Source of the DNA: Candidatus Polarisedimenticolaceae bacterium
GTDB taxonomy: Bacteria > Acidobacteriota > Polarisedimenticolia > Polarisedimenticolales > DASRJG01
NCBI GenBank assembly: GCA_036275915.1
Contig: DASUCV010000008.1
Span: 1 to 64,000 of the forward strand
Direction of reading: 5' to 3'
DNA: 64,000 bases
A program made the position numbers and the translations under genes. The notes under the pieces are model-generated. The model made no database searches. It had not been told where the DNA came from and worked only from the letters and a program-made list of their open reading frames with translations. Below, piece after piece: positions 29,901-53,594 of this stretch (position 1 is its first letter; every line of letters starts with the position of its first letter).

Positions 29901-30968
29901 CTCAACACACAGTCCAGCGTCGGGGTCACGCCGCCCGACATCTACTTTGGCGGGGGAAACCCTTTCGTCGCTCCGGGCGACAAGTACCTTTACACCAGCA
30001 ATGAGTACACACCGTCGATGTTCAAGTTCGACACGAGTCGCCCGGGCACACCGCTCGTCGCACACAATCTATTCACCGAGGCGATCGGCTCGGTCCTCCC
30101 CGACGGGAAGCGGATCATCTCGAGCGACGGCGTCGTCTACCGCGCCGGGACGCTGCTCGAGGAGGGATCGCGCGTCTCGCCGGGGCCGTCCAGCCCGTCA
30201 CCGAGCGGCGATGTGGTCTACGTCGGGCGGCAGAGCGACGGCGGCAGCGTCGAGGTGTGGGACACGAGTTCTTGGACGCTCCTTCGGACCATCCCACTCG
30301 GCTGTCCGAACATCCAGGCTTGGATGCCGATCAACCGCCTCCTGACGCTCCCCGGCGACACGGGCTGGCTCGTACAAAGCCTCCAGGAGCTCTGCATCTT
30401 CTCTTACGATCCGGATTTCGACGGACGCCTGAACGGCGCCGACGACGTTCCGCTCGATACCGACGGCGACGGCCAGCCCGACAGTTGCGATCGTTGCCCC
30501 ACGGTACCCGAGGCCATCGCCCGCGACACCGACGAGGATTTGATCGGCGACGCCTGCGACAACTGCCCCACGGCGTTCAACCCAGCCCAGACCGACGGCG
30601 ACGCCGATGGTATCGGCGACGCCTGCGACAACTGCCCCACGATCGCCAACGCAGATCAAAGGGACGGTGACGGCGACGGCATCGGCGACCTCTGCGACAA
30701 CTGTCCGAACATCGCGAATGCGAACCAGAACGACTACGACGGCGACGGAATCGGCGATGCGTGCGAGCTTGGCATCCCACTCGTCGATGCCGACGGGTCA
30801 GGGCGCGTGGACGGGCTCGATCTAGCGCGCCTCGGCCGCGCTTTCGGCGCAATGTCCACCGACGCGCGCTTCGACCGCGGCGTGGACTTCAATCGCGACG
30901 GCATCGTCGACGGGATCGATCTGGCCATGCTCTCGGCGATGTTCGGACGGTCGGTGCCAACGCATTGA
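26973..30968 (+). CDS. Large secreted propeller/Fn3 protein with thrombospondin type 3 repeats and dockerin-like C-terminus (1331 aa)
   Basis: The protein is exported (signal peptide [20 protein letters not shown], cut near residue 23). Three propeller blocks of the YVTN kind ([40 protein letters not shown]) span about 30-330, 436-748 and 849-1143. The first two are each followed by an Fn3-like domain ([34 protein letters not shown]). Then come about five calcium-binding thrombospondin type 3 units ([15 protein letters not shown]) and, at 1272-1331, two dockerin-like EF hands ([33 protein letters not shown]). It is probably a surface adhesin or scaffold. The start is TTG. By eye its base use is less GC-biased than its neighbours. 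No cohesin partner was recognised in the window. Confidence 0.85.
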
Positions 30969-39603: not shown

Positions 39604-42600
39604 ATGAAGACAGGCCGCGCCTTCCATCGAATCATCCCGATTTTGGCCGTGACGGCGCTCTGGGCCGGCATCGCCGCCGCTCAGGATGCGGGTTGGCAAT
39701 CCCAGATCGCGGCGGACCTCTCCGCGCGGGAAATGGAGCTCAGCCTGAAGGACGGGACCTGGCAGGCGCCGAACCGGGCGCAGGGCTTCCGGGTGTCGTT
39801 CACCGAGCGAGGCGTCCATCTCGCGCCGCGGCTTTCGCAGAGTCCCGAGTGGGAGTGGGGTCTCGCGTTCATGGGGACGGCAGCGACGGTTCGCACCTCC
39901 GCGCAGGAGAACCGCCTCGACCGCGACTGGGGCGGCGTTCGTGAGTGGTACGTGAACGAGGCGCGCGGGCTGAAGCACGAGTTCAGCGTCCTCGAGCGGC
40001 CGGTGACGGCCGCGCTCGACTTGGCGCTCACCGGGACGCTCGAGCCGCGCGTCAGCGCGGACGGGCAGGCGATCGACTTCCACACGAAGGATGGGCGGAA
40101 CGTCCTCCGCTACGCCGAGCTGTCGGTCGTCGATGCGCGCGGGCGCACGCTGCCGTCGCACATGGAAGGGTTCGCGAAGGCCGGCACGCGCGGCATCCGC
40201 ATCGTCTTCGAGGACAAGGACGCCGCTTATCCGATCACCGTCGATCCACTCGTGATGACGATCGGATGGAGCGCCGAGTCGAACCAGGCCAACGCGGACT
40301 TCGGCACCTCCGTCGCGACGGCGGGCGACGTCAACGGCGACGGCTTCTCGGACGTCATCGTCGGCGCCGACAAGTACGACAACGGCCAGGTCGACGAAGG
40401 TCGCGCGTACGTCTATCTCGGTGGTCCGTCGGGCCTCTCGACGACGCCCGCGTGGACGGCCGAGAGCAACCAGGCGAGCGCGTTCTTCGGCGCCTCGGTC
40501 GCGCCGGCCGGCGACGTCAATGGCGACGGGTACGACGACGTGCTCGTCTCGGCTTACGGCTACGACGACGGACTGACCGACCAGGGCCGGGTCTACCTCT
40601 ACCTCGGCTCGCCGACCGGGCTCTCCGCGACGCCGGCGTGGACGGCGGAGAGCGACCAGGCGAGCGCGAACTTCGGCCGCTCGGTGGCGACCGCGGGCGA
40701 CGTCAACGGCGACGGCTACTCGGACGTCATCATCGGCGCGACCACCTACGACAGCGGCCAGACCGACGAGGGGAAAGTCTTCGTCTACTACGGCTCGCCC
40801 GCGGGCCTTCCGGCGACGCCGAGCTGGACCGCGGAGTCGAACCAGGCGGGCGCGGCGTTCGGCGTCTCGGTCGGCACGGCGGGCGACGTCAACGGCGACG
40901 GCTACGACGACGTCATCATCGGGGCGCGCCTCTACGACAACGGCCAGACGGACGAGGGGCGCGTCTTCCTCTACCTCGGCTCGGCGTCCGGTCTCGCGGC
41001 GAACCCGATCTGGACGGCGGAGAGCGATCAGGCGGGCGCCAACTTCGGCCGCTCGGCCGCGACCGCGGGCGATGTCAACGGCGACGGCTACGCCGACCTC
41101 ATCGTCGGCGCGTACACCTACGATCAATTCCAGGTCGACGCGGGGCGCGCGTACATCTACTACGGCAACGCGACCGGCGTTCCCACCCCCGGGCCGATCC
41201 TCTACACGGGCTTCTCGGTGAACGAAGGATTCGGCATCTCCGTCGCGGCGGCCGGCGACGTGAACGGCGACGGCTACGCGGATGTCATCGTCGGCGCCTA
41301 CCTCTACGACGGCACCGGCTTCACCGACCAGGGACGCGCGTACGTCTATCTCGGCTCCGCGTCCGGAGTCTCGACGGTCGCGGCGTGGGCGACGCAGATC
41401 CCGGACGCGGGCGCGCAGTTCGGCTGGTCGGTCGCGACCGCGGGCGACGTCAACGGCGACGGCTACTCCGACGTCATCATCGGCGCCCCGATGGCGAACG
41501 ACGGCGAATCGTATGAAGGACGCGCCTTCGTGTTCATGGGCGCACCCGATGCTCCGTCGATCACCGCCGGATGGTCGGTCTCCGGCCGCACGAACGGCGA
41601 GTTCGGCCAGTCGATCGCGACCGCGGGCGACGTCAACGGCGACGGCTACTCCGACGTCATCGTCGGCGATCCCTTCCACTTGTTCCCGCAGGCCCGCCTC
41701 TATCTCGGCACGCCGAGCGGCCTCTCGACGACGCCGGCCTGGGAGGCGGACGGCAACGCCGCGATCGACGACCAGTTCGGCTACTCGGTCGCCTCCGCGG
41801 GCGACGTCAACGGCGACGGCTACTCGGACGTCGTCGTGGGCGCTCCGGGCAGCGGCACCATCTACGTCTACTACGGCTCGCCGACGGGGCTCGGGGCGAC
41901 GCCCGCGTTCGTCGCCTCCGATCCGACGAGCAGTCTCGGGTTCTCCGTCGGGACGGCGGGTGACATCAACGGCGACGGCTACTCCGACATCGTCGTCGGC
42001 GATCCGAACTACACCGCCTTCGGAACGCAGATCGGCGCGGTTTTCGTCTACTACGGCTCCGCGAACGGTCTCTCGGCGCGGCCCGACATCCGGCTCGGCC
42101 TCCAGGCGAACACCGCCTTCGGACAATCGGTCTCGACCGCCGGCGACATCAACGGCGACGGCTACTCCGACATCGTCGTCGGCGACCCGCAGTTCCCCAA
42201 CTCGGTGACCGGCGTGGGTGTGGCGGGAGGGGCGTTCGCCTTCTGCGGCCCCAGCCTCTCTCCATGCTGGGAGGCATTCGGCGACCCCGTCCACGGGGCC
42301 CGGTTCGGCACGTCGGTCGGCACCGCGGGCGACGTCAACGGCGACGGCTACTCCGACCTCATCGTCGGCGATCCTTATCTCTCGAACCCGGCGCTCAACG
42401 CGGGTCGTGCCTACGTCTTCCTCGGCGCACCGACGTTCATCGACAATCCTCCGCCCGATTGGTACGTGGACGGCGAGCAGGACTTCGCGCACCTCTCGAA
42501 TTTCGGCTCCGCCGTCGCCACGGCCGGCGACATCAACGGCGACGGTTATTCCGACGTCGTCATCGGCGCGCCGCAGTTCCACGGCGGGATCAACGGCATG

Positions 42601-45645: not shown

Positions 45646-45989
45646 GCATGAGCGACGCGGACGACGATCGACTGATTTTCCTCGGTGCGGGACCTTTCGC
45701 GGCGCTGGTCCTGGGTGCCGCACTGACGCCGGTCCGCGAGTCGGTGACCAGCTCGTGGGTCGCCTACCCCTTCATCATTCTGACGATGATCGCAGCGGAG
45801 TTCGGCGGCCGCCGGGCTGCGCTGGCCACGGCGGTCACGTCGGTCCTCAGCATGGACTTCTTCCTCATGACGCCGTACTTGAGGATCGAGGTCGCCGAGA
45901 AGCACGACCTGATCACGCTCGTCGGCTTCACCGCTTGCGGCATCGTCGCCGCGGCTCTCTCGTCCCGGCGGCGCCGCGGACCCGGCTAG
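45642..45989 (+). CDS. Stand-alone DUF4118 (KdpD-type transmembrane sensor) protein (115 aa)
   Basis: Most of the protein is the four-helix membrane module found inside the potassium sensor KdpD: VAYPFIILTMIAAEFGGRRA, then SMDFFLMTPYLRIEVAEKHD, then LITLVGFTACGIVAAALSSR. There is no USP, GAF or kinase part, so it is a bare membrane domain. The ATG overlaps the stop of the KimA-like permease, so translation is coupled. The last four bases (CTAG) are shared with the stop of the convergent RHS gene. It may be a regulatory or assembly subunit of the permease. Confidence 0.75.
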   Translation: MSMSDADDDRLIFLGAGPFAALVLGAALTPVRESVTSSWVAYPFIILTMIAAEFGGRRAALATAVTSVLSMDFFLMTPYLRIEVAEKHDLITLVGFTACGIVAAALSSRRRRGPG

Positions 45990-48900
45990 AGCGGAAGCCG
46001 CACGTAGAGGCCGTTGTGGATCGTTGCGCCCAGCCCGGTGCTGGCCGGAGGCGGCTCGCCGTCGAACGGGTCCATTCCCCCCGCGGAGCTCGACATCCGG
46101 CAAAGACCGGAGGGGCACCGGATGGGACGCCCGATGTGCGGGTCGTACGCGGTGCCTCCGACCCGGTAGAGCTGCGTCTCCGGCTCCCACAACATGCCGC
46201 GGTAGAGGAACGGATTCCCGACGGCCGACGACCCGATCGGCGTTCCGTCCGCTGTGAAGAACGACGGGTTGCCCCAATCGTCGTAAGCGTACCGTTCGAC
46301 GACGGCGCCGCTCTGGTCGGTGAGCGCCCGCACGTTTCCCTGCTCGTCGGTGTGATAGGTGTACCGGTCGAGCACGCCGTTCCCGTTGATGTCGGCATCC
46401 TCGATCATCTGGAGGAGGCGGCCGTCCTCGCCGACGACGAAGCTCGCTCGAGACGCGCCCCCGGCGTACTCCTGGATGTAATCGCTGCCGGCGGAATCGA
46501 AGCGCAACGGGACGCCGGCCCGTAGCAGGTACCGGCCGAGCGCATCCTGCGTGTACGAGAACCCGCCCGCAGTGACGATGTTCCCGCGATAGTCGTGGGT
46601 CATCGCGAGCTCCGCAGGCGTGCCGCCGTGGATGATCAGCGGGTTGCCGTCGGCGTCGTACGTGCGCGTGCCCGACGGCGTCGATGTGTACTGGTGCATC
46701 TGGAGGTCGGCAGGCTCGGGGAGGGTCGCATCGCGCGTGTACGAGCCCGCGTCCATGCCGCCGCTCACCAGGACGCGGTCGCCCATCGCGCTCAGCGTGT
46801 AGACGCGTGACGAGGCGCTCCCCGACGACGTGGTCGTGCTCTTCGTCAGCCGGTGCATCGAATCGTAGACGTAGCTCGTCGTCGACGACGAGAGCGGCTC
46901 GCTGCGCGAGGTCATTCCGAGCGGGTCCCACGTGATCGTGGCGTCGACGATGTCGCCGTCGGCGCCGGTGACCGTCTTGCGCTCGAGGCGTCCCGCGGCG
47001 TCATAGAGATAGCTCGTTCCGACGCTGTTGCCGTTGACGACGCGCGAGAGCTTCGTCGCTCCCTGATAGTTGTAGGACGCGACCAGCGCGCCGTCCGCGA
47101 AGACGGTTTGCGTCCGGTCGAGCGGGTCGTAGCCGTAGCTGATCGTGTGGCCGCCCGGATAGACCATGCTCGTCGGGTTGCCGACGGCGTCCCGCTCGAT
47201 CGTCACCGTGTGCGGCGGCGATCCGCCGGCTTGCTGCGTCTCGCTCAGCATGCGCGAGAACGAGTCGTAGGTGCGCGTCACGGTCGAGTCGTCATCGGAG
47301 GCGGAGACGAGCGCACCGCTGCCGTCGTAGACGTAGTGCTCGCTCGTCGTGCCCGCGACGCCCGGGCCGCGGGCGACCGAGACGTCGGTCAAGCGTCCCA
47401 GCTTGTCGTAGGTCAACGTGCTCGCCGAGCCGTCCGGGTCGGTCTCACTGACCAAGTTGCTTCGCGGAGACCAGACGAGGCTGGTCGTCCGCGCGTCGGG
47501 CGCGGTTGCGACCGAGACGCGCCCGCCGCCGTCGTACGCGTACGTCCACGTGCTCCCTTCGGCATCGACCGTCGAGGTGAGCTGGCCGAGATCGTTCCAC
47601 GTCTGCGAGGACACGAGGGTCGCGACGACATTGCCGTTCCCGTCGCCGGTGTCGGTCATGTCGTCTTGCGTCTGCACGAGCTGGCCGAGGCCGTCGTACG
47701 TGTATCGCGTCTTGTTTCCGGTCTTGTGCGTGACACCAACGACGTAGTACTTGCCGTCGAACTTCCTCTCGGTGCGCCCGCCCGCCGGATCGACGTCCGC
47801 CGTCCGCCGGTCGAGCGCGTCGTACTCGTAGTGGGTCACCGCCGAGGACGGCGGGCCGCCGGCGGTCGCGGCGTCGGTCTCGGTCACCTGGATCACGTTC
47901 GAGGCCAGATCGTAGTCAAGCTGAGTCGTGTTCCCCATCGCATCGGTGACGAGCTTCAGCAACTGCCCCGAGTCGTAGGTGAAGTCGGTCCCGTGGCCGT
48001 TGTCGTCCTGGATGCGGCTCCAATTCGAGTTCTCGTCGTAGTACCCCAGACACGTGTTCGAGCCGTCGCCGATCGGAGCGCCGTTCGCGCGGCGCAGATG
48101 CGTGCAGTCGCATTTGATCGCGCGGTCGATCTCGTCGTAGGTCGTCGTGCACTCGGCGAGCTTCACGTTCGGCCCCGACGAGCCGTCGGCCAGCTCGCCG
48201 TCGAGACTCGACGAGACCTCGTTGCCCGCGGCGTCGTAATGGGACGACCACTCGTTCCCCTCGGCGTCGGTCGTCTTCGTCAGGCGTCCGTAGCCGTCGT
48301 ACTGGAACGTCGTGTCCGCCACCGAGGGGTCGATGCCGTCGTGCACGGCGATCAGGTTGCCGTCCGCGTCGTAATCGTAGGCCTGCCGTGCCCACACGGA
48401 GCCCAGCTCGTCCTTGTCCTGCGAGAGCGTGGGGAACTTCACCTTCACCCTCGCATACGCGAGCTCCTTGACGAGCTTCGCCCCGGAGCCGCCCCTCGAG
48501 AGCTTCGTGATCCGGCCGAGCGGGTCGTACTCCACGTCGTCGATCATGCACTGCGCGCTGTCGATCTCACGGCTCAGGCCGCTGAGCCGGCCGAGACCGT
48601 CGTAAACGTAGAGCGTGCTCAGGTAAGGGTCGGGCCGGAGCACGCCGTTCTCGTCGACGTTCTGCACGTCATGGCGGACGAGATCGCCGTTCGCGTCGTA
48701 GTAGGAATCGCTCTGATACGAGAACGGAGCCGCGGACGTCACGCGGACGACCTGGTCGTCGTCGTTGATCGTCATCGTCGTCGTATGTCCGTTCGGATCG
48801 GTCGTGCCGACGAGCTGCCCGCGCGCGCTCCACGTGTATTGCGTCCCCGCGCTGAGCGTCCCGTGCGGGATGGTGAGCGTTCTGAGGTATCCGTTGTCGG

Positions 48901-51900
48901 AGCCCGAGCTCGACCAATCGAGCGTCGAGACGTGGCTCTGCGGGTCGGTGTACGCGACGATCTGGCCGTAGGCATTCCGGTCCCAGTGATGATGGATCGT
49001 CTGGGGCGCGCCGGTGAGCGTACCTGTCACGACCGAAGGCGCCTGAAGATCGGTCAAGAAGCCGGACGTGTCGTACGTGAACGTCCACGTCTGGCCGTTC
49101 TCGTCGGTCGCCGTCGTCGGGAACCCCGACGAAGGCAGCGTGCCGCCGAACGCGAGCGTCCGGTCACGCGACGTTCCGATCGCAATGAGCCTGCCCGGCG
49201 AGACCTCGCGGCCGCCCGGGAAAATCCCGGGATCGCTGTCGTCGCAGTCTTCCTTGATGGAGACCTCGCCCCAGTCGTTCCAGTGCCCGTTGCTGAGTGT
49301 GGATCCCAGCGTCTGTTTCCCAGCCAAGCAAATGTGACTGTCGCCGGTGTAGCGGCCCGCCGGGTCGATGACGCTGTCGCCTCCGTCTCGTGCCACCGCA
49401 TGGCGAGCGGCGGTGCAGATGGAGCTGTCGCCGGTGTAGCGGCCCGCCGGGTCGATGACGCTGTCGCCTCCGTCTCGTCCCAGCGCATGGCGTGCGGCCG
49501 TGCAAATGGAGCTGTCGCCCGTGTATCGAGCGGCGGTGCAGATGGAGCTGTCGCCGGTGTAGCGGCCCGCGGGGTCGATGACGCTGTCGCCTCCGTCTCG
49601 TCCCAGCGCATGGCGAGCGGCCGTGCAAATCGAACTATCGCCCGTGTATCGAGCGGCGGTGCAGATGGAGCTGTCGCCGGTGTAGCGACGAGCTGCCGTG
49701 CAGATGGAGCTGTCGCTCGTGTAGCGGCGCCCCGCCGCCGTGCAGACGTCGCTGTCCATCGTGTACCAGGTGTCACCCCAAATCTTCTCCGATCCCGCGC
49801 CCGCACCCGCGAACGGATCGACGCTCTCTTGGTAGAGCTTGGGATTCAGCTTCCGCCACAGCCCCGGCGGCTCGGCCGGAGGATGCACGATGTGGATGTC
49901 CTTGATCGTCCTCCACGTTCCAGGCGGCGTCGCCGGCGGGTGCACGATGCGGACGTCGCTGATACGGCGCAAGACGCCGGACGGAACGCCTGGTCGATAG
50001 ATGATGCGCGGCTCGCGGCGTGCCCCCCAATCGGTTCCGAACGGCGTCGCGTACGTCCACGAGCGCGTGATCTGCGCCTGGTCGCCGCCGAGCGGTCCTG
50101 GATCGAACGTCTCGCTCAACAGATCGCCGCGCTTGAGCACGCTGGGATTCCCCGAGTCATAGACGCGCGACACGCTCGCGAGCGAGGGCATCGTCAGCTC
50201 CGTGACGAGCGCGTTGCCGTCGTGGTGGACCTTGGTCTCGTAGTACGGCGGATCGGTCGGCGAAGGCGGTGGGCCGGGCAGATTGTCGAGATCGCTCGCG
50301 AACGTCGCAGAGTCGGGCAAGACTCCGGTGAAGTCGCGAACGCGGACGATCTGTCCTTGCGCGTCGTAGTAGTAGTCGCTCCTGTGGTCGGTCGCGTCCT
50401 TGACGATCGTCTTGCTCACCGCGAAATCGTTCGACGCATCGGGCGTGAGCGCCACGTAGGTGAACATCTCGTCCGCCGGATTCACGGCGGCGTAGGTCTC
50501 CATCCGATAGAGGCGGTCGAACGCGGGATCGGCATCGTTGTCGGTCATGCTGTAGGAGAAGCTCGCGTACGTCTTCCCGTCGGGTCCGGCGATCGACAGC
50601 AGGTTGCTGTTCTCCGCGCCGAGCGAGTGGCCTCGCGAGTACGTGTACGTCGTCGTGCGGCCTTGAGGGAAGTCGTTCCCGGTGGGTGTTCCGGTCACCG
50701 GCGGTGACGTCACCGACTTCAGGTCGTCGAGCTCGCCGCCCGCCTCGGTCCCGTCGTAATACACGTATTGGACGCTGCGACCAGTGAAGTCCGTCACCGC
50801 GGTGACCAGATTGCGCGTGTTGTACGTCAGCGTGATCGCGCGTCCGAGCGTGTCGGTGATCGTCGTGAGCTTGCCGCCGGTGTCGTAGGCGAAGCTCATC
50901 GCGTTCCCGAACTGATCGCGCGACTGGAGGATCTTCCCGGCGGCTGCCGAGCCGTCGAACCCGCCGAAGACCCAGATCTGCCCGTCGGGGAAGTTCAGCG
51001 CCAATGTGCCGTCCGCCTGCGGGCACAGCTCCTCGAAGCCGCCGGCGGGCGTGACGTAGCATCCGCCACTCGGCGGCGGGGCGGCGAAGAGCGTCTCACC
51101 CGATGCCGGATTGACGACGACCACGCCCCCGGTCGGAGGACTCGACACGCGCCGGTCGTACGCATGCGTCCATTCGACGCCCTGCGACGTGCTCTGCCAT
51201 CGGCGCGAGCGGTAGTAGCGCGTGAACACGAAGTCGAAGCCGCGTCCGGGGATCTCCATGTCGGTCTGCGCGACCTCCAGCTCTCCGGAGTGCAGATCGA
51301 CGCGCGCGGCGGCGCCGAAGTCAGGCGCTGCGTTGTAGACCGGAGGCACCCAGTGCTTCGCCGCTTCCGGATCGCCACCGCCGTTGGGCGCGGGCGAACC
51401 GTTCAATCCTCCCTGGCAGGCCGCGGGATCGGAGAAGACGGTGAGGGTGGCATCGGGCGTCGTGATGTTTCCGCAGGCGTCCTGGACCGTGACGTGGATC
51501 GCGCTCCGATGATCGGAAAGCGTCACGGGCAGCGCGAGGGTCGGGCTGTTGCCGCCGACAGGCGCGCCGTTCTTCGTCCAGGCATAGCTCGCGCTGGAGC
51601 CGTTCTGCGCTTCGACGGTGAAACGCGCGGTACCGCCGTCGCACACACCGATGCTCGAGGGCCCGGTGACGATCTTCGGCGCGACGGGCGTGTGCGTGCA
51701 GACGCCGTTCTTCGCGGAGTCGTCCGTGCACGTATTCGAGTCGTTGCAGACGACGCTGAAGGCGCAGTCGCGCACCTGGCGCGGCGTGCCGTCCGATCGC
51801 GTGCCCGAGTCTCCTGCGCCGCATCCGTTCCGGCCGCGCACGATGTAGAAGAAGATGCCACCGGCCGGCGGGACCTGCGGATCGGTGAACTGAAGCTCCG

Positions 51901-52255
51901 TGCCGCCCGGATCGAGACACGTATCCGTCGGATGGTCGAGGAAGTTCGAGGCGACACGCGAGCGCACGACCTCGTACGTGAACGGCGCCGATTGCCCGCC
52001 GGAATCGAGTGGATTCCAGCTCAGCACCGCAGCGCCGGTACCGGGCACTCTCGCGAGCTTGACCTGCCCGACCGATTGCATCCGCGCCCAGAGGCCGGGG
52101 TTCGTGTCGTCGCAGTCGTTGGCTCCGACGTAGCCGTCGCCGTCGAGATCGCCGGGACCGCCGGCCATCCCCGTGCAGGTGTCCGCGAACGAAGGTCGCG
52201 CGGCGCAGAGAACGAGGAACGACGCGAGATAGATCGAGACACGGAATCCGCGCAT
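45986..52255 (-). CDS. Giant secreted RHS/YD-repeat protein without recognisable toxin (2089 aa)
   Basis: Start ATG 52255 gives a signal peptide (FRVSIYLASFLVLCAARPSF). Next come a MopE-like motif (DLDGDGYVGANDCDD), the Fn3-like module shared with both FG-GAP proteins (YEVVRSRVASNFL, FFYIVRGRNGCGAG) and an Ig-like segment. The RHS part begins at about residue 330 (HSGELEVAQTDMEIPGRG) and runs through many YD repeats (YDALDRRTADVDPAGG; YDSFSRMLSETQQAGG). Residues about 770-1010 are a non-RHS insert holding two IVHPPAxPPG units, LCCL-like repeats and another DCDDSDPG motif. The end has an RHS core-like YDPHIGRPI followed by only about 45 residues, with no polymorphic toxin seen. No immunity gene is adjacent. 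Its stop shares four bases with the convergent DUF4118 gene. Confidence 0.87.
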   Translation of the reverse strand: MRGFRVSIYLASFLVLCAARPSFADTCTGMAGGPGDLDGDGYVGANDCDDTNPGLWARMQSVGQVKLARVPGTGAAVLSWNPLDSGGQSAPFTYEVVRSRVASNFLDHPTDTCLDPGGTELQFTDPQVPPAGGIFFYIVRGRNGCGAGDSGTRSDGTPRQVRDCAFSVVCNDSNTCTDDSAKNGVCTHTPVAPKIVTGPSSIGVCDGGTARFTVEAQNGSSASYAWTKNGAPVGGNSPTLALPVTLSDHRSAIHVTVQDACGNITTPDATLTVFSDPAACQGGLNGSPAPNGGGDPEAAKHWVPPVYNAAPDFGAAARVDLHSGELEVAQTDMEIPGRGFDFVFTRYYRSRRWQSTSQGVEWTHAYDRRVSSPPTGGVVVVNPASGETLFAAPPPSGGCYVTPAGGFEELCPQADGTLALNFPDGQIWVFGGFDGSAAAGKILQSRDQFGNAMSFAYDTGGKLTTITDTLGRAITLTYNTRNLVTAVTDFTGRSVQYVYYDGTEAGGELDDLKSVTSPPVTGTPTGNDFPQGRTTTYTYSRGHSLGAENSNLLSIAGPDGKTYASFSYSMTDNDADPAFDRLYRMETYAAVNPADEMFTYVALTPDASNDFAVSKTIVKDATDHRSDYYYDAQGQIVRVRDFTGVLPDSATFASDLDNLPGPPPSPTDPPYYETKVHHDGNALVTELTMPSLASVSRVYDSGNPSVLKRGDLLSETFDPGPLGGDQAQITRSWTYATPFGTDWGARREPRIIYRPGVPSGVLRRISDVRIVHPPATPPGTWRTIKDIHIVHPPAEPPGLWRKLNPKLYQESVDPFAGAGAGSEKIWGDTWYTMDSDVCTAAGRRYTSDSSICTAARRYTGDSSICTAARYTGDSSICTAARHALGRDGGDSVIDPAGRYTGDSSICTAARYTGDSSICTAARHALGRDGGDSVIDPAGRYTGDSSICTAARHAVARDGGDSVIDPAGRYTGDSHICLAGKQTLGSTLSNGHWNDWGEVSIKEDCDDSDPGIFPGGREVSPGRLIAIGTSRDRTLAFGGTLPSSGFPTTATDENGQTWTFTYDTSGFLTDLQAPSVVTGTLTGAPQTIHHHWDRNAYGQIVAYTDPQSHVSTLDWSSSGSDNGYLRTLTIPHGTLSAGTQYTWSARGQLVGTTDPNGHTTTMTINDDDQVVRVTSAAPFSYQSDSYYDANGDLVRHDVQNVDENGVLRPDPYLSTLYVYDGLGRLSGLSREIDSAQCMIDDVEYDPLGRITKLSRGGSGAKLVKELAYARVKVKFPTLSQDKDELGSVWARQAYDYDADGNLIAVHDGIDPSVADTTFQYDGYGRLTKTTDAEGNEWSSHYDAAGNEVSSSLDGELADGSSGPNVKLAECTTTYDEIDRAIKCDCTHLRRANGAPIGDGSNTCLGYYDENSNWSRIQDDNGHGTDFTYDSGQLLKLVTDAMGNTTQLDYDLASNVIQVTETDAATAGGPPSSAVTHYEYDALDRRTADVDPAGGRTERKFDGKYYVVGVTHKTGNKTRYTYDGLGQLVQTQDDMTDTGDGNGNVVATLVSSQTWNDLGQLTSTVDAEGSTWTYAYDGGGRVSVATAPDARTTSLVWSPRSNLVSETDPDGSASTLTYDKLGRLTDVSVARGPGVAGTTSEHYVYDGSGALVSASDDDSTVTRTYDSFSRMLSETQQAGGSPPHTVTIERDAVGNPTSMVYPGGHTISYGYDPLDRTQTVFADGALVASYNYQGATKLSRVVNGNSVGTSYLYDAAGRLERKTVTGADGDIVDATITWDPLGMTSRSEPLSSSTTSYVYDSMHRLTKSTTTSSGSASSRVYTLSAMGDRVLVSGGMDAGSYTRDATLPEPADLQMHQYTSTPSGTRTYDADGNPLIIHGGTPAELAMTHDYRGNIVTAGGFSYTQDALGRYLLRAGVPLRFDSAGSDYIQEYAGGASRASFVVGEDGRLLQMIEDADINGNGVLDRYTYHTDEQGNVRALTDQSGAVVERYAYDDWGNPSFFTADGTPIGSSAVGNPFLYRGMLWEPETQLYRVGGTAYDPHIGRPIRCPSGLCRMSSSAGGMDPFDGEPPPASTGLGATIHNGLYVRLPL
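49327..49770 (-). repeat. In-frame minisatellite encoding LCCL-like units within the RHS gene
   Basis: A 36-base unit encoding YTGDSSICTAAR occurs about eight times, some copies variant, and a 51-base unit encoding HALGRDGGDSVIDPAGR occurs three times, in mixed order. All units keep the reading frame. The first unit (IWGDTWYTMDSDVCTAA) looks like the start of an LCCL domain, whose usual signature is a WG motif, then YTxDSxICxAAxHAG. Copies are so alike that replication slippage or recombination must have produced or homogenised them recently. Confidence 0.85.
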
Positions 52256-52341
52256 GCCCACCCCCCCGGATGGGCATCCATATACCCCGAATCGTTCGGC
52301 TCCGTGCCGACTTTTCGAGGCAGGATCGCGCGGCCCCGGGT

Positions 52342-52347
52342 TACGAT
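52342..52347 (+). promoter_or_regulatory. -10-like hexamer before the POT transporter
   Basis: TACGAT lies 8 bases before ATG 52356, in the same TACGATCCG context as at 43792. The 100-base gap to the divergent RHS gene holds no other obvious promoter on this strand. Confidence 0.4.
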
Positions 52348-52355
52348 CCGCAGCC

Positions 52356-53594
52356 ATGGCCGAAGCGCGACTCTCCCTGTCCGATTACGTCCGCGGCTTC
52401 AGCCGTCCGTTCTGGGCGGCAAACGCCTCCGAGCTGTTCGAGCGCATCGCGTACTACGGGATGGCGCCGGTCCTCGTCCCCTACCTCGTCCAGGTGAGGC
52501 ACTTCGACGAGAGCGCGGCGATCCGGGTCGGCGGCAACCTCGGCTTCGTCGTCTACGGCGTCACCGTGCTGTCCGGCATGTTCGCCGACTGGCTCGGCTA
52601 CCGCCGCGCGATGATGCTCGCCTACGTCCTGCTCGCCGTCGGCTACGCGGGCGTGTGGAAGGCGCCCAGCTTCCCCGTCGTCGTGCTCGCGCTCGCGTGC
52701 GTCGCGTTCGGCGCGTCGGTCATCAAGCCGGCGATCACGGGGACGGTCCAGAGGACGTGCTCCGAGGAGAGGCGGCCCGTCGGCTTCTCGATCTACTACA
52801 CGCTCGTCAACGTCGGCGGCTTCCTCGGCCCGAACGTCTCCGGCGCGGTCTCGGCGGCGGCAGGTCTCTCAATGGTCTTCCCGACCTCCGCGATCGCAAT
52901 TCTCGTGGCGCTCGCGCTCGTCCGCATCTTCTACGCGGATCAAGAGACGCGCGTGGCGACGCCGAAGCGGACGCTCGGCGCGTTCGCGGCGGACTTCCTC
53001 CGCATCCTGACGACGGCGCGCCTCATGAGCCTGTTTCTCCTCGTCGCGGGGTTCTGGAGCCTCTTCTTCCAGTTCTTCGGCGCGTTCACGACCTACGTGA
53101 CGCAAGACCTCGGGCTCAGCCAGCAGAAGGCGAACTTCATCATCTCGCTCGACGCCGCTCTCATCGTCTGCACCCAGGTGATCGTCGGCTACCTCGTCCG
53201 CAACTGGACGACCGCGCGCGCGGTGTGGATCGCGGCGCTCATCGGGTCGGTGGGGTACGGCGTGATCGGGCTCCGGATGTCGCCCGTCATCGCCGGTGCG
53301 GGCGTCGTCGTCTTCTCGATCGGCGAGATGATCTACTCCGCGCACTTCTACAAATACCTCGGGAGCCTGGCGCCCGCCGGCCAGGAGGGGATGTATCTCG
53401 GGTTCGCGTTCTTCCCGATCGCGCTGGGGAGCTTGCTCTCCGGATGGATCGGCGGGCCGGTCGCCGGCTGGGCGCGCGACACGCTTCACCACCCCGAGAA
53501 GATGTTCTGGGCGTTCGGCGCCGTCGGCCTCGCCGCCGCGCTGGGTCTCTTCATTCACGCGAAGATGTACGCCGGGCGCGACGCCCACGCCTGA
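52356..53594 (+). CDS. POT/PTR-type or related MFS peptide transporter (412 aa)
   Basis: About twelve membrane helices are visible. The N-terminal FWAANASELFERIAYYGMA is the POT-family opening (its ExxER-like proton-coupling motif reads ELFERIAYYG). GYRRAMMLAYVLLAVGYAG and CVAFGASVIKPAITGTVQ (the POT motif with a conserved lysine) follow, then SIYYTLVNVGGFLGPNVSG. POT transporters import di- and tripeptides with protons. Start ATG 52356 is chosen over a longer frame beginning at 52254, because the longer N-terminus is not hydrophobic and would overlap the RHS start. An OPT-type transporter starts 15 bases after the stop. Confidence 0.87.
   Translation: MAEARLSLSDYVRGFSRPFWAANASELFERIAYYGMAPVLVPYLVQVRHFDESAAIRVGGNLGFVVYGVTVLSGMFADWLGYRRAMMLAYVLLAVGYAGVWKAPSFPVVVLALACVAFGASVIKPAITGTVQRTCSEERRPVGFSIYYTLVNVGGFLGPNVSGAVSAAAGLSMVFPTSAIAILVALALVRIFYADQETRVATPKRTLGAFAADFLRILTTARLMSLFLLVAGFWSLFFQFFGAFTTYVTQDLGLSQQKANFIISLDAALIVCTQVIVGYLVRNWTTARAVWIAALIGSVGYGVIGLRMSPVIAGAGVVVFSIGEMIYSAHFYKYLGSLAPAGQEGMYLGFAFFPIALGSLLSGWIGGPVAGWARDTLHHPEKMFWAFGAVGLAAALGLFIHAKMYAGRDAHA

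Follow-up and report, generated by a model that had tools for sequence, protein, structure and literature searches.

An in-frame array of LCCL-derived core fragments in a lineage-specific insert of an RHS/YD-repeat protein

RESULTS AND DISCUSSION

In the window, the stretch of 64000 nucleotides that was analysed, an RHS/YD-repeat protein carries an array of LCCL-derived fragments within a lineage-specific insert, and this array is real, although as an instance of in-frame repeat growth it is mostly ordinary. Our preferred reading, to which we assign a probability of roughly 0.6, is that a fragment of an LCCL domain entered the protein, was duplicated in frame and came under selection for its sequence, and that it would now serve as a projecting spacer or adhesive arm of the YD shell. 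The features on which this reading is based are collected in Table 1.

Table 1 Features of the RHS/YD-repeat protein and of the array in its homologue L034
Feature	Position	Strand	Remarks
RHS/YD-repeat protein ORF	45986..52357	-	2123 aa; ORF list, Pfam, NCBIfam
Lineage-specific insert, ~residues 786-1079	49121..50002	-	BLASTP and MAFFT against RHS homologues L034, L035 and L036
Two copies of a 19-aa (57-bp) unit, ISDVRIVHPPATPPGTWRT / IKDIHIVHPPAEPPGLWRK	49850..49963	-	42/57 nt identical
WG strand and unit A1, start of the LCCL-like stretch, IWGDTWYTMDSDVCTAAGRR	49724..49783	-	Best single LCCL match
Tandem array A1 A2 A3 A4 B1 A5 A6 B2 A7 B3 A8	49316..49765	-	TRF, unit table, pairwise identities
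123-bp module A3-A4-B1	49562..49684	-	All 5 changes against A5-A6-B2 synonymous
Unit B1, HALGRDGGDSVIDPAGR	49562..49612	-	GDSVIDPAGR half resembles a diverged A unit
123-bp module A5-A6-B2	49439..49561	-	5 synonymous differences from A3-A4-B1
87-bp module A7-B3, HAVARDGGDSVIDPAGR	49352..49438	-	Against A6-B2: 4 synonymous and 2 amino-acid changes
QTLGSTLSNGHWNDWGEVSIKE segment (TLSNGHW), claimed LCCL end	49250..49315	-	LCCL end not supported
MopE-type metal-binding-like motif, DCDDSDPGIFPGGREVS	49199..49249	-	Pfam PF11617, 17.9 bits, below the cut-off of 27
Array of L034, 41-aa unit, GDYNSSRSNRTHTP...GGGGHDVIYIFGGTRGRAP	L034 ~1845-2504; G005 C1 near 4351845-4352504	-

The host protein and its insert

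Both Pfam (PF05593, RHS_repeat, 253 bits over 16 stretches; DUF6531, 41.6 bits) and NCBIfam (TIGR01643, YD_repeat_2x, 201 bits) identify the ORF as an RHS protein with YD-repeat arrays. Its RHS-associated core is degenerate, scoring 14 bits with TIGR03696 (Rhs_assc_core; cut-off 32.5) and 17.5 bits with PF03527 (cut-off 27.9), and the ORF ends with a short tail approximately 45 residues past this core. No toxin family of Pfam or NCBIfam matched the ORF, and the C-terminal toxin domain of RHS polymorphic toxins was not recognized. The N-terminus is of MopE type with Ig/PKD-like sequence; the start is likely to be the internal methionine of MRGFRVSIYLASFLVLCAARPSFADTC, which resembles a signal peptide, and the protein is probably secreted. 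When compared with other RHS/YD-repeat proteins (WapA-like and bacterial teneurin-like), the window protein has in common with them DUF6531, many YD repeats and the signal-peptide-like start, but differs in its extra insert of approximately 290 residues, in a core that falls below the cut-off and in a tail of approximately 45 residues with no recognized toxin. A long plus-strand ORF that spans the array (46853-50707) was discounted as a consequence of the high G+C content, the RHS homology extending throughout the minus-strand frame. Elsewhere in the window, FG-GAP-like repeats with a 186/372-bp period (40282-41486, plus strand) belong to an ORF of 1369 aa, at the end of which come a MopE-type motif and a segment similar to the N-terminus of the RHS protein, and tandem thrombospondin type 3-like repeats with a 69-bp period (30543-30766, plus strand) form the end of a 1482-aa ORF.

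The insert was delimited by alignment with three RHS homologues, two from the same order (L034 and L035) and one from the same class (L036), which have approximately 30-41% identity with the window protein over the long matches; for homologues in the same order and class in general, the range is approximately 30-44%. These alignments stop at approximately residue 769-785 and restart at approximately 1070-1081 with 0-22 residues in between, which leaves a net insert of approximately 270-300 residues in the window protein between two YD-repeat segments that lie almost side by side in the homologues. In the single further genome of the family that was searched, no RHS protein was matched at the threshold applied. 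The insert contains the tandem array, a MopE-like DCDDSDPG motif and, just upstream of the array, a duplicated 57-bp unit to which the earlier note on this DNA did not refer. The LCCL-like start (IWGDTWYTMDSDVCTAA, from residue 859) and the DCDDSDPG motif (from residue 1037) were both found as that note had described them, although the residue range of 810-1010 that it gave has to be corrected to approximately 859-1048. Exposure of the insert at the surface is plausible, judging by the signal-peptide-like N-terminus and the position at a YD-repeat junction.

Structure of the array

An in-frame tandem array within the RHS protein, as proposed earlier, is indeed present and takes up residues 865-1014. 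TRF scores reached 533, and the periods that it reported, 36/39, 87 and 123 bp, are all multiples of three. The array is composed of a 12-residue A unit, YTxDSx(I/V)CxA(A/G) followed by one to three residues, and a 17-residue B unit, HAxxRDGGDSVIDPAGR; a count with the pattern YT..DS.[IV]C.A[AG] returned eight copies of the former, and there are three of the latter, in agreement with the numbers first suggested. Five of the eight A units read exactly YTGDSSICTAA and six contain DSSIC, the divergent ones being the first (YTMDSDVCTAA) and the last (YTGDSHICLAG). The description of the units as near-identical thus holds for the protein, but not for the DNA, in which A3, A5 and A7 are only 82-88% identical with A4 and A6. 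In addition, the second half of the B unit, GDSVIDPAGR, shares 22 of 30 nucleotides with GDSSICTAAR of the A unit, whereas 19 is the most that any of the gene's 1959 other in-frame windows shares. We therefore interpret this half, which had previously gone unremarked, as a diverged copy of A, and by this derivation the array would consist of eleven units of common descent, arranged in nested modules. RNA structure was rejected as a property of the array (z = 0.08).

Relationship to the LCCL domain

The LCCL domain comprises approximately 100 residues, has a central helix between two sheets and contains in its back half the pattern GGxVxIEIRPG...Y.GS.RNGV.S. With the natural stretch of the insert as the query, the Pfam LCCL profile (PF03815) gave a summed score of 48.2 bits (E 1.3e-12), and on the whole RHS protein it gave 24.4 bits, which exceeds the curated cut-off of 22.6 only by the summing of many fragments, no single stretch of the whole protein passing the report threshold. 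These Pfam scores refer to the natural stretch and the whole protein only, whereas the array queries against the own genome and the order and class, as well as two of the three LCCL-profile queries, included shortened versions of the array or segments cut from it, prepared for search use only. The best single match, formed by the WG strand and A1, covers profile positions 34-52 of 96, and each match spans only approximately 15-22 of the 96 positions. Our own LCCL model, built on 17 distinct LCCL copies from bacteria of the same phylum, scored 64 bits on the array in eight stretches and matched all eight A units, the last of them weakly. When the model was confined to the front half of the domain, the first unit scored 27.1 bits and a later pair 26.1 bits, values equalled by none of 2000 shuffled sequences. 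Against a model of the back half or tail, the B units and the TLSNGHW segment either did not score or were matched by 184-408 of 2000 shuffles, and the proposal that TLSNGHW resembles the end of an LCCL domain is consequently not supported.

Of the conserved LCCL motif YxxxSxxCxAAVHxGVI (PMC10892792), the part YxxxSxxCxAA occurs in seven of the eight A units (the eighth has CLAG), and the histidine is found in three only, with ALG or AVA following in place of xGVI. The four conserved cysteines of the domain (PMC10892792) do not recur in the array, where each 12-residue unit has a single cysteine and both the front strand and the TLSNGHW segment lack one. Structure prediction with AlphaFold2 from the single sequence returned a mean pLDDT of 31.7 and was uninformative for the LCCL fold. 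Taken at the level of sequence, an LCCL origin is well supported, with the 12-residue A unit and the preceding WG strand as a genuine core fragment; a complete LCCL domain appears to be absent, and what was multiplied would be the fragment and not the domain. The LCCL signature noted earlier accordingly stands for the 12-residue unit, where profile scores and shuffles bear it out, but not for a domain; the multiplication of this core by in-frame growth is supported as well.

Bacterial tandem LCCL proteins from the same phylum (L043, L044 and L045, for example) have in common with the array the core motif WG...YT.DSsICtAA. However, these proteins contain two to three whole domains of approximately 77 residues in tandem, whereas the window array has the core fragment only, at a spacing of 12 or 29 residues, and in comparison with PF03815 its back half and first cysteine are not recognizable. 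Proteins with two or three complete tandem LCCL domains were observed in six genomes (G068, G080, G103, G256, G267 and G382; loci L043-L061), and three genomes, all from one genus, have alanine in place of the core cysteine (DSSIATAAVHAG). In animals, LCCL modules have been linked to the binding of bacterial wall components (PMC10892792).

Distribution of the array

The array is present once in its own genome. No credible relative of it was found in the order, the class or the phylum sample, nor in genome contigs, viral contigs, plasmids or phages, where the best phage match reached only E 9e-3. A single genome-contig match (L033) was rejected as its frame is full of stops, and a plasmid match (H2) was rejected because it lies antisense to an annotated gene. 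Real LCCLs were detected in 8 of 396 genomes with a protein query; the whole-genome scan with the Pfam LCCL profile matched nowhere, controls included, and was therefore not used as evidence of absence. The history of the array is thus read from one sequence, no homologue of the array having been found.

Constraint and age of the units

Among the variants of the inner units, 11 of 14 are synonymous and three change an amino acid, an excess of silent changes that was reached by simulated neutral change with P <= 0.0005. Units A3 and A4 encode the same peptide although seven of their 9.2 synonymous sites differ, and both A3/A4 and A5/A6 combine a dN of 0 with a high dS, synonymous sites being near saturation. 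The two 123-bp modules are separated by five third-position differences only (dS 0.17, dN 0), few in number and nearly silent in one antisense frame too, where they cause one amino-acid change, and the synonymous divergence between the larger modules is approximately 0.17-0.20. Because of this antisense frame, the constraint test cannot by itself pick out the RHS frame, which is instead fixed by the RHS homology. Units A3, A5 and A7 are identical with one another, and exact repetition within the array extends to at most 54 bp (at an offset of 87 bp), only four 51-mers and no 61-mer occurring more than once. As neighbouring units are identical in protein, yet synonymously near saturation, the array seems to be constrained and not freshly made, and only the 87- and 123-bp modules appear to be younger.

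Alternative explanations

The earlier note had regarded the array as actively changing, and such an array would be a minisatellite in which modules are gained and lost by slippage at a high rate, varying a surface loop between strains. The nested 36/87/123-bp periodicity and the identity of A3, A5 and A7 are what such a process would leave, but the 54-bp exact repeat is the sole sign of recent slippage, and both the divergence between modules and the near saturation between neighbours speak for persistent units, as does the scarcity of long repeated words. We consider this explanation rather unlikely, and for the inner units, with their silent divergence, the data argue against a surface minisatellite in active change. 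The array resembles coding minisatellites of bacterial surface proteins in its in-frame, multiple-of-three units and its probably secreted host; it differs from them in that its inner units are old by synonymous divergence. Chance growth of an array in a tolerant loop, free of selection on its sequence, would agree with its absence from every relative searched and with an insertion site that is dispensable, judging by the homologues; the excess of synonymous changes between units makes such drift unlikely.

The matches of the array to solved structures in phmmer were restricted to designed alphaRep helical repeats (best E 7e-5), and these, together with the B units and tail that find no counterpart in LCCL, raise the question of whether a short helical repeat, HEAT-like for example, has hit upon the LCCL motif by convergence. 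Similarity to LCCL is far greater and takes in the WG strand ahead of the first unit, whereas no HEAT family of Pfam was matched at E values up to 10, and a HEAT-like helical repeat thus appears less likely than an LCCL origin, convergence being very doubtful. Repeats are also a known source of assembly error (PMC6868369), by which copies may be inserted or collapsed. Since no 61-mer recurs, ordinary read lengths should resolve the array, and its units carry distinct, mostly silent differences and keep the frame, so that a misassembled array is highly improbable.

Proposed origin and role

According to the LCCL-fragment reading that we prefer, a probably secreted RHS/YD-shell protein would have gained the insert in frame at a YD-repeat junction, and with it a piece of a bacterial LCCL domain that ran from the WG strand into the first part of the YxxxSxxCxAA helix. 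The 12-residue piece would then have been duplicated head-to-tail, one copy diverging and being extended to give the 17-residue B unit, and the 87- and 123-bp modules would have been duplicated afterwards, with gain and loss of modules possibly proceeding by slippage or unequal recombination. As all of the unit lengths are multiples of three, the shell remains in frame. Selection would hold the protein sequence of the units while synonymous sites drift. The loop may project from the shell, lengthened by the repeats and presenting many short motifs with one cysteine each, and could act as a spacer or as an adhesive or ligand-contacting arm. On this account, a domain fragment can be the seed from which an insert of a YD shell grows, with selection maintaining it afterwards, and the array is a warning that repeats may be nearly identical as protein without being young or active.

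Private arrays in other RHS homologues

The closest RHS homologue, L034, which comes from a one-contig genome (G005), has a C-terminal array of its own with a 41-residue unit (GDYNSSRSNRTHTP...HDVIYIFGGTRGRAP), approximately 5.4 copies and a 123-bp period. A search of 296 further genomes from the phylum did not recover this array. Its units differ by a dS of 0.3-1.1 and a dN of 0.05-0.13, and it contains a Kelch-like fragment that scores 18.9 bits, below the cut-off of 20.1. The two arrays have in common the in-frame 123-bp period, the gene family, a protein sequence kept in the face of synonymous divergence, their private occurrence and a fragment of a domain motif; however, their sequences are unrelated, and that of L034 forms a C-terminal tail whereas that of the window protein lies in an internal loop. 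It is tempting, but on present evidence quite doubtful, to suppose that private arrays arise repeatedly in the RHS/YD-shell proteins of this lineage through the in-frame multiplication of fragments of unrelated domain signatures (LCCL here, Kelch-like in L034), with a 41-residue higher-order period close to that of a YD-repeat pair (the TIGR01643 model has 42 positions) and with copies that stay identical in protein as their codons diverge; the equal 123-bp period is shared by two cases (n=2). If true, such recurrence would offer a route to new shell appendages. The occurrence of unrelated private arrays in two RHS homologues points to these proteins as material for studying the birth of coding repeats.

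Two further RHS ORFs have unusual tails. The C-terminal 280 or so residues of one of them (L039 ~767-1609; G005 C1 near 1869767-1870609, minus strand) have an extremely high tryptophan content (WWGWNAWVGWWPGSGWFGW...); they may form a genuine tail or result from reading the wrong frame over a plus-strand ORF rich in proline. In the other (L038, G018 C73), the tail that follows the core carries an imperfect repeat of approximately 32 residues (KAKAVAKFKAG.AL...GGGGGHVTVLK), a third private-looking case.
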